Shown piece by piece: positions 28,675-38,103 of a stretch of 64,000 nucleotides of DNA (position 1 is the stretch's first letter; every line of letters starts with the position of its first letter). This stretch comes from Mycoavidus sp. B2-EB (lineage in GTDB: Bacteria; Pseudomonadota; Gammaproteobacteria; Burkholderiales; Burkholderiaceae). The notes beneath the pieces were generated by a model. It had not been told where the DNA came from and did not search any database. It saw nothing but the letters and a program-made list of their open reading frames with translations. The position numbers and the translations under genes were made by a program. The stretch lies in assembly GCF_014218255.1 (NCBI RefSeq), contig NZ_AP021872.1:1-64000 (forward strand). The letters are read 5' to 3'.

Positions 28675-29853
28675 CTAGAGCGGGTCATTTTCCGATGGCT
28701 CTATGCCTCGATCCACTATTTCTATATACCTTGCATAATTGAACAGGCGGTTTCGTTTTTGGGCGGTGAGTGCTTGTACGATACCTAGTTTTTCCATGTG
28801 AACCAATGCCTTATTGATAGTGGCTGGCGCCAGGCCCGTTTTCTCTACTAACCAGCCCGAGGTGATGACGGGGCGTTCTATGAGTGCTTGGTGGATTTGT
28901 AAAGCAGAAGGTGCTGCTCTGCCCAGCCTACTTATTTTTTCGCGATCTTGAGCGAACAACGCGAGAAGTTGTTGCGCCGTTTCTACGGCTTGGGTAGCGG
29001 TGACAGTAATGGCCTCAGTAAAAAAATCGAGCCAGGCTTCCCATTCACCCGTCACACGGACATTGTTGAGCAGCTCGTAATAATATTGGCGATGAGTTTT
29101 AAAATAGAGGCTCAGATAGAGCATGGGTTCTCGTAACACCTTTTGTTCACATAAGAGCAATGTGATTAAGAGGCGACCCAAGCGACCATTACCATCGAGA
29201 AATGGGTGGATCGTTTCAAATTGCACATGCGCTAATGCTGCTTTAAGCAATACTGGCATTGGTTCTGGCAGATCATGGAGAAATAGCTCGAGCTTGCCCA
29301 TACAAGCTAGTACTTCCTCAGCCGGAGGTGGAACGAACGCTGCATTGCCTGGTCGTGTGCCCCCAATCCAATTTTGACTACGTCGAAATTCCCCTGGTGT
29401 TAGCTTACAACCGCGACCTTTTGCTAACAGAACGCCATGCATTTCTTTAATCAGCCGCAATGATAATGGCTGCCCCTCTTTGAGCAGACGCAAACCGTGT
29501 TCGAGCGCTGCGACATAGTGACTGACTTCACGCACATCATCTAGTGGGACGCCTGGCATTTGATCTAGCTCGAACAGCAACAAATCGGAGAGTGACGATT
29601 GCGTCCCTTCGATCATGGACGAGAGCACTGCCTCTTTACGAACATACATGTAGAGAAAAAGCGAGGTGTCAGGTAGCAGCGTTGATACGCTATCCAACTG
29701 ACCGAGCGCGAGTAACGCTCGGTCAAACTTTCTGCGCAATTCAGTCGTCCAAGTGATAGGTGGGCAAGGCGGAAGCGGTGCGGGTACGAATGCCTGCGCT
29801 TTTTCACCGGTTGTCGATATCGTGACATAGTGGCCTTGGAGCGTTTGTTTCAT
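28675..29853 (-). CDS. Fic family AMPylase-type protein with C-terminal winged helix
   Basis: Fic proteins usually transfer AMP from ATP to hydroxyl groups of target proteins. This 392-residue protein has the full active-site motif HPFLDGNGRLGR at 216-227. The inhibitory helix motif SSMIEG at 78-83, N-terminal to the Fic core, makes it class II (self-inhibited). A C-terminal winged-helix segment (about 325-380, containing SGWLVEKTGLAPATINKALV) suggests DNA binding. It is convergent with priA. An inverted-repeat pair just upstream of its ATG is a likely autoregulatory operator. No secretion signal is seen; the target is unknown. Confidence 0.88.
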   Translation of the reverse strand: MKQTLQGHYVTISTTGEKAQAFVPAPLPPCPPITWTTELRRKFDRALLALGQLDSVSTLLPDTSLFLYMYVRKEAVLSSMIEGTQSSLSDLLLFELDQMPGVPLDDVREVSHYVAALEHGLRLLKEGQPLSLRLIKEMHGVLLAKGRGCKLTPGEFRRSQNWIGGTRPGNAAFVPPPAEEVLACMGKLELFLHDLPEPMPVLLKAALAHVQFETIHPFLDGNGRLGRLLITLLLCEQKVLREPMLYLSLYFKTHRQYYYELLNNVRVTGEWEAWLDFFTEAITVTATQAVETAQQLLALFAQDREKISRLGRAAPSALQIHQALIERPVITSGWLVEKTGLAPATINKALVHMEKLGIVQALTAQKRNRLFNYARYIEIVDRGIEPSENDPL

Positions 29854-30282: not shown

Positions 30283-30573
30283 ATGGTGACTGTTATTCAA
30301 ACTCCATCAGATTTGGGGGCAGCGCTTCGCTGCACCCGTAAACGGCTCAAATTGACACAGCCGCAATTGGCGTTGGCCGCTAATGTGGGTGTGCGTTTTC
30401 TGGTTGAACTGGAAGCCGGCAAACCTACTATCCAACTTAAGGGAGTATTACGTGTTATCCAAGCTCGAATGCTACAAGCCGATTTTATGGCTCATTTTGC
30501 TGACCGGTCATTACTTGAAAAAATGATTGTTCTAATTGAGCGTCGCTGTGCGCTGATGATGGAGCGCCTCTAG
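30283..30573 (+). CDS. HipB-like XRE-family transcriptional regulator (orphan antitoxin)
   Basis: This 96-residue protein carries a helix-turn-helix at about residues 10-60 (LGAALRCTRKRLKLTQPQLA, then VGVRFLVELEAGKPTIQL), very close to HipB/Y4mF antitoxins. HipB normally binds DNA with the kinase toxin HipA, encoded immediately downstream. Here putA follows at 30686 and no hipA piece is visible. The last 35 residues (from about 60) do not look like a HipB tail and may be out-of-register sequence after a deletion. AGGAGA at 30275-30280 favours the GTG at 30286 over the ATG at 30283. Confidence 0.75.
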   Translation: MVTVIQTPSDLGAALRCTRKRLKLTQPQLALAANVGVRFLVELEAGKPTIQLKGVLRVIQARMLQADFMAHFADRSLLEKMIVLIERRCALMMERL

Positions 30574-35649: not shown

Positions 35650-35698
35650 CTTCAGCCCCTTGCCCGGAAATAAATGGGTAAGGGGCTGAAGTATTTTT
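35650..35698 (+). terminator. Strong intrinsic terminator of the livK-like gene
   Basis: A 16-bp stem (35650-35665 with 35676-35691, one G-U pair) has a 10-base loop and is followed by TATTTTT. Confidence 0.9.
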
Positions 35699-35700
35699 CA

Positions 35701-35770
35701 AAATAAGCAGGATCGAGCGCTTGTAAGAAACGGCGCAACGTATCATTACTTGTCATGTGGCAAATAGCGT
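35701..35770 (-). pseudogene. Transposase fragment, copy 1 (ISAs1-like)
   Basis: Minus-strand translation gives TSNDTLRRFLQALDPAYFEKY, matching the conserved N-terminal part (DTxxRxxxxLDPxxF) of ISAs1-type/H-repeat transposases. Compared with the copy at 37811-37891, about 11 bases are missing just upstream, breaking the frame. No inverted repeats or other transposase parts are attached. It lies directly after a terminator. Confidence 0.6.
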
Positions 35771-35870
35771 ATGAGTTGATCAAGCTTGGTCTTCCCAAAT
35801 AGCTCTATATCGTGCCAACCTTTGCACCCAGCTATCATCGTGCAAAATACGAACAGTACAGTGGAAAAAC

Positions 35871-35919
35871 GCTATTTGCTTTTTGTATATTTCGATTTCT
35901 TCATCGCACGATCTCCTTT
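35871..35919 (-). pseudogene. IS3-family OrfA 5' stub
   Basis: On the minus strand an AAAGGAG ribosome site precedes an ATG (35904-35902) reading MKKSKYTKSK then a stop. MKKSKYT is the usual opening of IS3-family (IS407-like) OrfA proteins. A one-base change appears to have broken the frame. The segment is tiny, so the call is tentative. Confidence 0.4.
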
Positions 35920-36034
35920 TACATTGCAAAATTGCACCAGTTTTTTCTATTTTTTAATGTCTAGTTTTTGGAGGGCAAATCCAAGCTTACGCCTCATTTC
36001 TTTCATATGTTGACTAGCACAAAAACTATAACGA

Positions 36035-36078
36035 CATATTTTCAGACAAAATATGGGAGAATCAGCATATTTTCAGAC
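36035..36078. promoter_or_regulatory. Candidate operator of the AbiEi-Fic gene
   Basis: CATATTTTCAGAC occurs at 36035-36047 and again at 36066-36078, start-to-start distance 31 bp (three helical turns). The first copy is also half of a perfect inverted repeat, CATATTTT-N5-AAAATATG (36035-36055). The elements end 25 bp before the ATG at 36104. Confidence 0.55.
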
Positions 36079-36103
36079 TGTGTGTAACACGAGAGGTTCT
36101 TGA

Positions 36104-37603
36104 ATGCACAAATCGGACATCGATACTGCGGAAGTGCTGTTCACGGGTGGCAAGTCCGAAGCGCAAGCACGAAAGCTGGTTCGTGCTGCCGCTTCTGGTG
36201 AAGTGCGACGCATCTATGCTGGCGTTTTTACGGCCAATTGCAATAGTCCCCTTGAGGCAGTGGTTTTACGCAACTGGGCAGCCATTGTTGGGTATTTGCT
36301 GCCTAACGCGGTACTTGCTTTCAGGTCTGCTCTGGAACACCGTCCGGTGGAGGGCGTATTGCACGTTAGCCGCATTGGTCAACGCCGACGAACACTTGAA
36401 TTGCCAGGATTAACCGTTCATGTCTATCCAGGCGCGTCTCCTATCTCGGCGCTGCCTCCAGTCGATAATCCGTACCGTGGCCTATTTTTGCCGAGCGAGG
36501 AAAGGGGGATACTGGAAAATTTATCGACTCGCCGTGGCAGCAAACACTTAGTCTTATCGCAACAGGCGCTCGAAGAAAGACTTGAAAAGATTCTGACCAT
36601 TCGCGGTGAGTTCAAACTCAACGAGTTGCGAGATAGAGCGAAGGCCGTGGCCGACCAGCTTGGAATGTATAAAGAGATGTCTCGTTTAGAGAGCATCATC
36701 GGCGCTATGCTTGGCACCCATAAGCAGAAAAAACTTAAGAGCCAGCTGGCTTTGGCGCGAGCGGCCGGTATGCCATACGACCCAGACCGTATCGATCTCT
36801 TTGAGGCGTTACATGCACAGCTGAACACGGCAGTGTTCGCGCCCATCCCGGATCCTGCGCCGTTGGGCATCGCAATGGAGAACTTTGCTTTTTTCGAAGC
36901 TTATTTTTCGAACTACATTGAAGGAACCACGTTCGAGGTTGAGGAGGCGGAGAAGATTGTCTTCGAAGGTACCATTATTTTGAACCGCTCGGAGGACTCG
37001 CACGACATCTTGGGCACTTTCCACGCCGCGACATCACCGCCGTGGCGGAATCAATCACCGCAGACGGAAGATGATTTTCTCAGCTGGCTCAAGAACGTGA
37101 ATGCGCTTGTCATGCAAGCTCGGCCAGACAAGGAACCGGGCCGGTGGAAGGCGCAAGCCAACCAAGCGGGTAATACGCTTTTCGTGTTGCCCGAACTGGT
37201 ACGGGGCACGTTGCGAGAGGGATTTGTACGGATTAAGGCGCTCACCGACCCAGTAGCCCGTGCACTGATGACGATGTTCGTCATAACCGAGGTACATCCC
37301 TTTAGAGATGGTAACGGCCGCACAGCTCGACTGGCAATGAACTGCATGCTCTGCGAAGCCAAGCTGTGTCGCATCATGATACCGACAGTGTATCGGGAAG
37401 ATTACCTGTTACCGTTAAAACGGTTGACGAACGAAAAAGATGCGCAGCCATTCATCCGGACGATGACACGCATCCATAACTGGACTGCGCAATTTAATTA
37501 TGCGCAGGACCGCCAGTTAGTCCGCGAACAGCTTGCACGCTGTAACGCGTTCCATGAGAATTTAAGGGACTATAGACTGATTTTTCCAAGTGACATGCCG
37601 TAG
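36104..37603 (+). CDS. Fusion of an AbiEi-like N-terminal region and a Fic domain
   Basis: In this 499-residue protein, residues about 1-130 resemble the winged-helix and following domain of AbiEi-type antitoxins (ARKLVRAAASGEVRRIYAGV, then an LRNWAAIVGYLLPNAVLAFRS-like stretch). Residues about 190-450 form a Fic module with inhibitory motif SNYIEG at 269-274 and active site HPFRDGNGRTAR at 398-409. Both motifs are complete, so it should be a self-inhibited (class II) AMPylase with a DNA-binding front end. It stands alone with a repeat-type operator upstream and transposase fragments on both sides, so it is probably cargo. Confidence 0.82.
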   Translation: MHKSDIDTAEVLFTGGKSEAQARKLVRAAASGEVRRIYAGVFTANCNSPLEAVVLRNWAAIVGYLLPNAVLAFRSALEHRPVEGVLHVSRIGQRRRTLELPGLTVHVYPGASPISALPPVDNPYRGLFLPSEERGILENLSTRRGSKHLVLSQQALEERLEKILTIRGEFKLNELRDRAKAVADQLGMYKEMSRLESIIGAMLGTHKQKKLKSQLALARAAGMPYDPDRIDLFEALHAQLNTAVFAPIPDPAPLGIAMENFAFFEAYFSNYIEGTTFEVEEAEKIVFEGTIILNRSEDSHDILGTFHAATSPPWRNQSPQTEDDFLSWLKNVNALVMQARPDKEPGRWKAQANQAGNTLFVLPELVRGTLREGFVRIKALTDPVARALMTMFVITEVHPFRDGNGRTARLAMNCMLCEAKLCRIMIPTVYREDYLLPLKRLTNEKDAQPFIRTMTRIHNWTAQFNYAQDRQLVREQLARCNAFHENLRDYRLIFPSDMP

Positions 37604-37639
37604 TGTATGTTGCCCATCTACACTCTTTAGTAGTTTACG

Positions 37640-37891
37640 TGTAACAAGCAGGGTAGCCCCATTTAAATTTGAGCATTTAAGACCTCGTGAAGGCAGTTTG
37701 GATCCCATCCAGCCATTTTTCTCATTTGCTTCGAAACTCGCGCGAGGTCTGCGTTGTTTAATGATATTGAACAAAATTAAGAGCGGTTTTCTTAACGATG
37801 GCAATATTTAAAATGAGCAGGATCGAGCGCTCGTAAAAAACGGCGCAACGTATCATCACTCGGTACCCCAGATTCATACGGCAAATAGCGT
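37640..37891 (-). pseudogene. Transposase fragment, copy 2, with possible C-terminal piece
   Basis: Minus-strand 37891-37811 reads RYLPYESGVPSDDTLRRFLR followed by ALDPAHF, the same N-terminal transposase segment as copy 1 and better preserved. Immediately beyond, after a frame change, 37804-37690 reads LFNIIKQRRPRASFEANEKN followed by GW, which resembles the C-terminal end of ISAs1-type transposases. The middle of the protein, including the DDE residues, is missing. It looks like an internally deleted IS relic. Confidence 0.55.
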
Positions 37892-38028
37892 CTATTGAGA
37901 CATTACCTGTTTTAGAAAAATTGAAGAATTTGGATTTATCTAAATCTAATTTGGATAGTAATAATGTTCAAATGATAGTCTGCATAACCCTAGTACCCTC
38001 AGCGCTAAATCTTGTATATGAGAGTTGA
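37891..38028 (+). pseudogene. Possible leucine-rich-repeat protein fragment
   Basis: The plus frame ending at the TGA 38026-38028 reads TLPVLEKLKNLDLSKSNLDS, which has the spacing of a leucine-rich repeat (LxxLxxLxLxxxxL). It has no start codon of its own, begins where the transposase fragment ends, and is AT-rich. LRR proteins are common effectors in host-associated bacteria. The evidence is one repeat long. Confidence 0.3.
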
Positions 38029-38103
38029 ATTAAGGTGGTGAAGAGGTTATGCAGAGTACCCTTAATTATTACTAGTCTTGTTTTTAAAAAGACTAAGTGT
38101 AAG

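Follow-up and report, generated by a model that had tools for sequence, protein, structure and literature searches.

A putative class II Fic AMPylase with a predicted AbiEi-type front half, preceded by phased direct repeats, in Mycoavidus sp. B2-EB

The window analysed in this study, a stretch of 64,000 nucleotides at the start of contig NZ_AP021872.1 of Mycoavidus sp. B2-EB, carries a gene for a single protein that joins an AbiEi-like region to a Fic domain, with a Shine-Dalgarno-like GAGAGG ahead of it at 36091-36096. Loci of relatives are denoted below by L numbers and genomes by G numbers. The gene and its parts are as follows.

36104-37603 (+): AbiEi-like/Fic fusion gene, an open ATG frame of 499 aa with Fic PF02661; 15 relatives aligned at 35-67% identity
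36104-36244 (+): predicted winged-helix part of the AbiEi-like region, approximately residues 1-47 (AlphaFold2 model; 6y8q_A alignment over residues 1-200)
36245-36709 (+): predicted AbiEi-type C-terminal nucleotidyltransferase-like domain, approximately residues 48-202 (within the 6y8q_A match; MenT1, 8an5_A, over residues 53-202 at Z 6.7)
36908-36925 (+): class II inhibitory motif SNYIEG, residues 269-274 (translation and DNA read-out)
37295-37330 (+): Fic catalytic motif HPFRDGNGRTAR, residues 398-409 (translation)

The 499-aa protein is a member of the Fic/Doc (Fido) family and a putative AMPylase, as judged from its motifs and its modelled fold. Pfam PF02661 matched residues 327-416 with an E value of 5.2e-12 and was the sole family matched in a search up to E 1, in which AbiEi gave no match; the Pfam Fic domain was detected in all 16 family members. 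The catalytic motif satisfies the Fic/Doc pattern HPFx(D/E)GN(G/K)R, and SNYIEG, placed N-terminal to it, satisfies (S/T)xxxE(G/N). Residues H398, P399, F400, D402, G403, N404, G405, R406 and R409 of the former and S269, N270, E273 and G274 of the latter are invariant across the 16 aligned sequences. SoFic was the best PADLOC match of the protein, and FICD was the best PDB fold match of the full-length AlphaFold model (pLDDT 85), over the Fic part. The original prediction of a complete Fic domain with an internal inhibitory motif, for which a profile search had been proposed, was thus supported by the Pfam match, the intact motifs and the FICD fold. Since the available parts of PMC9755527 define class II Fic proteins by an inhibitory helix N-terminal to the Fic motif on the same chain, the position of SNYIEG before HPFRDGNGRTAR makes the protein a class II Fic by that definition.

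For the front half, an AlphaFold2 model of residues 1-249 (built from 12 sequences, pLDDT 83) found its best PDB match by Foldseek in the AbiEi antitoxin of Streptococcus agalactiae (6y8q; probability 0.98, E 5e-3, TM 0.39-0.48, rmsd 7.4), with no PDB match at E 0.001 or better. VIA-align placed 6y8q_A at Z 10.4 over 172 residues (model residues 1-200), followed by the nucleotidyltransferase toxin MenT1 (Z 6.7) and Rv2827c (1zel; Z 6.4), with the remaining entries below 5 and the wHTH chain 3b73 aligning with residues 1-47 at only Z 3.0. Because a Z below 8 may, by the tool's own guidance, reflect merely a common arrangement, the AbiEi assignment rests on 6y8q, with Rv2827c and MenT1 consistent but weak for the second domain. 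At the sequence level, the search with AbiEi profiles that had been suggested gave a divided answer, a weak match of the window protein to the PADLOC AbiEi profile (E 0.0066) and none to Pfam AbiEi up to E 1; among 16 members, PADLOC model PDLC02267 matched four up to E 0.01 (best 1.1e-4) and Pfam AbiEi matched one at E 0.064. The predicted relation of the N-terminal region to AbiEi therefore stands, weak by sequence and much clearer by predicted structure, while its description as a DNA-binding front end was too narrow in extent: for residues 1-200 the model predicts the fold of an entire AbiEi antitoxin, with a winged helix and a nucleotidyltransferase-like domain.

The region immediately before the gene contains the following elements.

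36035-36047 (+): repeat copy 1, CATATTTTCAGAC, exact direct repeat
36066-36078 (+): repeat copy 2, CATATTTTCAGAC, exact direct repeat
36004-36016 (+): candidate copy farther upstream, CATATGTTGACTA, with a spacing of 31 bp to copy 1
36107-36119 (+): possible copy within the first codons, CACAAATCGGACA, proposed from its position, which is shared by L118 and L119
36035-36055 (no strand): palindrome CATATTTT-N5-AAAATATG, exact, overlapping copy 1, with spacer CAGAC

Both 13-bp copies are exact and lie 31 bp apart, an arrangement rarely matched in 300 dinucleotide shuffles (p=0.003), in agreement with the earlier description of two copies three helical turns apart. With all spacings open, the best triple of the window falls at 31/31 and makes use of CATATGTTGACTA (28/36 matches, p=0.016, 60 shuffles). 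On the downstream side, a GACA at +12 of the gene follows the GAC of copy 2 at a distance of 40 bp and occupies a place that has its counterpart in L118 and L119; since the corresponding 31/40 triple scores 22/36, below the control mean of 23.7, copy CACAAATCGGACA depends on position and relatives. The palindrome, which had been put forward as an operator, is indeed exact and, with 3 mismatches allowed, CATATTTT-CAGAC-AAAATATG is the only such site in the 1.88-Mb genome. Among 2000 shuffles of the 150 bp ahead of the gene, however, 52 contained an exact 8-bp-arm palindrome with a spacer up to 10, as did 20 of 426 tiles of the window (150 nt each), so that on its own it is only modestly surprising. 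By the same definition, comparable palindromes occur in only 2/21 family upstreams, counting the window, and we reject the palindrome as a family operator. No inverted pair of at least 10 bp was found in 35900-36104, where the repeats are direct.

A promoter might be built into the repeats: CAGACA at 36043-36048, in copy 1, could double as a -35 box and CATATT, 17 bp behind it in copy 2, could be a -10 box. The pair matches 8/12 sigma-70 positions, lies below the threshold of the promoter scan and was unlisted by it; the terminator and promoter scans of the window gave nothing decisive. As the sigma-70-like hexamer pair reaches 10/12 in just L038 and L122, with lower matches or none in the other 16 of 19 tested, we retain such a built-in promoter only as a suggestion.

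Arrays of repeats also precede the genes of relatives, with a sequence specific to each lineage: the repeat reads TTTTCAGACA in L118, TTTCGGACA in L119, AAAAACACGACA in Variovorax, GGAAAACGACA in L133 and TTAACAAAAGTTTGCA in the phage-borne L041. Direct repeats were scored as the best pair with 20-60 bp spacing between -200 and +20, at a significance of p<0.05. Within a first set, 14 of 19 members had a significant direct repeat, all 14 with spacings of 29-32 or 41-42 (L009, L016, L021, L022 and L024 had none). A second set, gathered later from the bacterial family of the window, gave 12 of 13, ten at 31-32 or 41 and two at 46 and 55 (L117 fell short at p=0.09); it overlaps earlier lineages and is thus not fully independent of the first. 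Upstreams of other long open reading frames at the same loci, used as controls, had a significant direct repeat in 11 of 149 cases. Direct repeats in phase, as noted before the window gene, hence recur in many members of the family, which lends support to a putative DNA-binding role. Left out of these statistics were the similar loci L008 and L116 (like L007), L028 (98% to L017) and L035-L037, L039, L123-L125 and L132 (like L038); L029 (Rhizobium), taken to be like L023 without comparison; L114 and L115, identical to L012 and the window, respectively; L014 and L130, whose N-terminal part is missing; the split frames L018 and L042; and L030 and L031, which have the Fic part only. L131 and L134 were kept, as their frames end early but their starts are intact.

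Triples of 12-mers were then assessed between -130 and +40 with every pair of spacings from 20 to 60 open, the triplet spacing having first been spotted in GACA positions of the same sequences. The best triple fell at 30-32/40-43 bp in 15 of 32 members; once these were grouped into 21 clusters at a protein identity of 70%, it did so in seven clusters. Over 40 rounds of shuffling, the number of clusters in this spacing window averaged 0.25 and never exceeded 1, and any equally sized spacing window held at most 3; among control upstreams, 1/152 had such a triple. Control triples score up to 36/36, so the evidence lies in the spacing and not in the score. In the 15 members with the triple, the first base of the third copy lies in the range -39 to +14 relative to the start codon; this copy covers the ATG in L016, L022, L040 and the later-found L185. 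On the coding strand of the 32 upstreams, GACA was observed 125 times against 39.7 expected, and its complement TGTC 30 times against 26.9; GACA is absent from six upstreams (L013, L015, L016, L024, L025 and L041). The p values for GACA periodicity, which count related upstreams as if they were independent, were set aside. In eight additional members, the best triple fell at 31-32/41-42 in five (L164, L166, L170, L172 and L185), one of them tied and that of L164 borderline (p=0.066); in L179, L199 and L200 it neither fell there nor was significant. Because L166 and L164 resemble L040, L170 resembles L121, and L172 and L179 resemble L038, the clearly new lineages are L185, which has the triple, and L199 and L200, which do not.

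The gene is sporadic in its occurrence. Its nearest relatives found are proteins of Burkholderia sp. OK233 and Paraburkholderia bryophila, both at 67% identity, and the gene is present in 18 of 398 genomes of the family of the window (6 of 25 genera) and in 2 of 100 genomes of relatives, its own included in both, as well as in 1 of 299 genomes of the phylum, which is its own. With three candidates scored per genome in the 398-genome search and five in the phylum search, these counts may be low. In the genus of G044, of which 11 genomes were searched, only G044 itself carries the gene. A further 19 plasmid records match with at least 80% query coverage and 35-43% identity, from Hymenobacter, Phocaeicola, Bacteroides, Variovorax, Sphingorhabdus, Novosphingobium, Rhizobium, Neorhizobium and Alteromonas; 13 of them were analysed, and the other six have the identity values of analysed ones and were taken as copies without comparison. 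On two IMG/VR contigs, AbiEi-Fic genes lie behind phage tail genes (L040, 3974-5464; L041, 3947-5410). Prophages or phages thus seem to carry such genes, and a search of GenBank phage records gave no match at E 1e-5.

In the window, the gene lies within a stretch that is absent from two congeners and holds a pair of relics on either side of it.

35690-38102 (no strand): stretch absent from the matching site of the two congeners searched (flank comparison)
35697-35750 (-): transposase-like gene relic, copy of a 54-nt direct repeat; reverse frame reads SNDTLRRFLQALDPAYFEKY
37807-37860 (-): other copy of the relic, past the 3' end of the gene; reverse frame reads SDDTLRRFLRALDPAHFKYC

The two flanks lie 75 bp apart in congener G002 and ~160 bp apart in G001, and the gene is missing between them in both; the congener genomes measure ~2.3 and 2.8 Mb, and that of the window 1.88 Mb in one contig. 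The two 54-nt fragments, which we take to be remnants of a 'transposase, ISAs1-like' gene, are 91% identical. Their presence at both flanks, together with the congeners that lack the gene there, indicates that it was probably acquired. Parts of 35867-35980 match five places in G002 at 78-81% identity, and this segment may belong to a repeated element. The list of open reading frames near 36104-37603, with neighbours judged by eye, held no plausible second operon gene. Elsewhere in the window, a second Fic gene at 28675-29853 (-) encodes 392 aa with SSMIEG and HPFLDGNGR, by eye in the SoFic/CccR order, and a small Xre/HipB-like gene, named by eye, lies at 30283-30573 (+; 96 aa); a HipA-like neighbour was not seen. 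The genome as a whole has six Fic-like places, of which the two beyond the first four are at E 0.03 or worse.

A free-standing partner of the fusion was not found among the loci examined. Two candidates for a two-gene ancestor were considered and rejected: in Hymenobacter DG25B (L018) the split looks like a frameshift relative to L016, and in the Acetobacter persici pair (L031) the upstream open reading frame has no detectable relation to the AbiEi half. The Acetobacter plasmid gene itself (L031, 3225-4831) is a related Fic gene that has a degenerate inhibitory motif, SNLLEK, and overlaps the 153-aa frame upstream by 4 bp; the two may represent a version split over two genes, the inhibitor being a protein of its own. 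We likewise discarded the notion that the N-terminal module is a widely shuffled cassette, since it was found in only 19 of 398 family genomes (up to 8 candidates scored per genome); 18 of its 21 matches there lie in open frames of 499-537 aa and the other three in shorter ones (L159, which is the gene of L131; L134; and the 62-aa L161). One other plasmid fusion was seen, of the N-terminal module to a ROK protein, in seven Klebsiella records of which one was analysed. The first ~130 residues of this 'ROK family protein' (L027, 2986-4698) are related to the AbiEi half (34% over 126 aa with L016), and it may represent another regulator fusion; its upstream holds one pair of repeats 32 bp apart, without the 31/41 triplet. 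On a Bacteroides fragilis plasmid, a DUF6088 gene (L028, 1398-2000, -) near the AbiEi-Fic gene is preceded by a long inverted repeat, TTTGTCACAAATAAATCATAAATTTGTGACAA, that occurs twice at a distance of 50 bp and differs from the direct repeats of the Fic gene. Apparently broken copies occur in relatives (L131, L134 with L130, and L018), where sequencing or assembly faults are possible.

The nearest characterised counterpart among known systems is CccR of Yersinia pseudotuberculosis. As far as the consulted parts of PMC9755527 describe it, CccR is a single-chain class II Fic protein that carries a DNA-binding domain, has its inhibitory motif N-terminal to the Fic motif, and binds and represses its own promoter. 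The principle of an autorepressing Fic protein is therefore not new, and fusions of Fic to HTH domains were already described in 2009 (PMC2686095, in part). The differences, on the same partial accounts, are that CccR has its Fic domain first and its HTH last, whereas the window protein has its AbiEi-like half first; that the CccR operator is an inverted 10-bp repeat with 26 bp between, whereas the repeats of the window are direct; and that secretion by a type VI system is a feature of CccR. The window protein also shares a Fic core and an N-terminal inhibitory helix with class II proteins of the SoFic/FICD type; in place of an N-terminal AbiEi half these have, according to the relevant part of PMC2686095, a winged helix at the C-terminus (SoFic) or TPR repeats (HypE, that is FICD). 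With class I modules of the VbhT/FicT type it shares a Fic domain held by an inhibitory helix, which there resides on a separate protein (PMC9755527, in part) and here on the same chain.

The other half recalls AbiEi of type IV abiE systems (6y8q; Rv2827c, 1zel) in its predicted two-domain fold and in the repeats over its own promoter. In those systems AbiEi is a separate antitoxin protein whose gene accompanies that of AbiEii, the nucleotidyltransferase toxin, whereas in the window the AbiEi fold is fused to Fic. The sections of PMC7319586 and PMC3985639 drawn on here describe AbiEi antitoxins as binding 23-bp repeats that also cover promoter elements and as repressing their own promoters; these sites are inverted repeats, whereas those of the window are direct. 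The S. agalactiae AbiEi half-site given there, TAAAAGCAACA, resembles the repeat GGAAAACGACA of L133, a likeness that is only suggestive. Our search of the open-access literature, with most subscription papers outside it, found no paper on an AbiEi-Fic fusion, and phased direct repeats before an AbiEi-Fic gene were not found in print by a search that was not aimed at the 31/41 spacing as such. On sequence and model evidence, a class II Fic with a predicted whole AbiEi-type half and a recurrent operator-like geometry is a new variation on a known theme.

Taken together, we consider it probable that the gene is mobile and encodes a class II Fic AMPylase whose AbiEi half binds the repeat array, so that the protein represses its own gene. 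Spacings of ~31 and ~41 bp correspond to three and four helical turns, so that proteins bound at the repeats would align on one face of the helix. The AbiEi half would thereby lie over the promoter region (and over the start codon as well in several members), shutting down its own gene. Known AbiEi proteins repress their own promoters through repeats, which makes self-repression the natural inference, and autoregulation of the AbiEi-Fic gene is likely. Inhibition by Glu273 would keep the Fic half inactive until it is lifted by a trigger, for which altered DNA binding, oligomerisation or a signal of infection may be candidates; the released Fic half would then AMPylate a target. A toxin-antitoxin or defence role would be in keeping with a gene found on plasmids, after prophage tail genes and within a strain-specific insert, and such a function is possible; this is the weakest part of the proposal.

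Of the competing explanations, the best placed, though we think it rather unlikely, is that the protein is an ordinary Fic transcription regulator of the CccR or SoFic sort, its DNA-binding part regulating the gene itself and perhaps further genes, its Fic part having a housekeeping or effector function and its likeness to an antitoxin reflecting a shared fold only. Self-repression by CccR (PMC9755527, in part), the Fic-HTH fusions known from 2009 (PMC2686095, in part) and the second Fic gene at 28675-29853 all speak for it; yet the match extends over both AbiEi domains and beyond the winged helix alone, and the DNA-binding part is N-terminal, with a fold and repeats unlike those of CccR.

Going further in the other direction, the gene might encode a single-chain toxin-antitoxin, as the original prediction had entertained, of a class so far undescribed, in which one chain unites the complete fold of a type IV antitoxin with a Fic AMPylase of class II: while a three-site operator (spacings of 31 and 41 bp, the last site at the start codon) is occupied, the gene would be silent and the enzyme off, and loss of this DNA address through plasmid loss or phage attack would switch AMPylation on. 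We regard this stronger form as unlikely.

That the gene is acquired but idle in a small genome, with no present function, we judge very unlikely. It lies on a strain-specific insert with repeat relics on both sides, and the broken copies in relatives would suit such a fate unless they are sequencing or assembly faults, but against it stand an unbroken frame, undamaged catalytic and inhibitory motifs, an intact ribosome-binding site and two exact, intact repeats. Least probable is that the repeats are iterons of a plasmid or phage, or are bound by some other protein (a host regulator, for example), with the AbiEi half acting otherwise: although their sequence differs between lineages and some plasmid members lie near replication or partition genes, the repeats precede the AbiEi-Fic gene on plasmids, chromosomes and prophages alike, keep the 31/41 spacing in many members while the remaining context changes and reach the start codon in several, and control upstreams at these loci show the triple in 1/152 cases.

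Class II proteins make up 80% of the Fic family, and the part of PMC9755527 concerned describes their functions and the modulation of their activity as nearly uncharted. Against this background, the AbiEi-Fic family offers a natural test case in which an enzyme is coupled both to a regulatory domain and to an identifiable DNA address, and the 31/41-bp spacing yields a sharp prediction about binding. The spacing would also allow further members to be labelled self-regulating in place of plain 'Fic family protein'.
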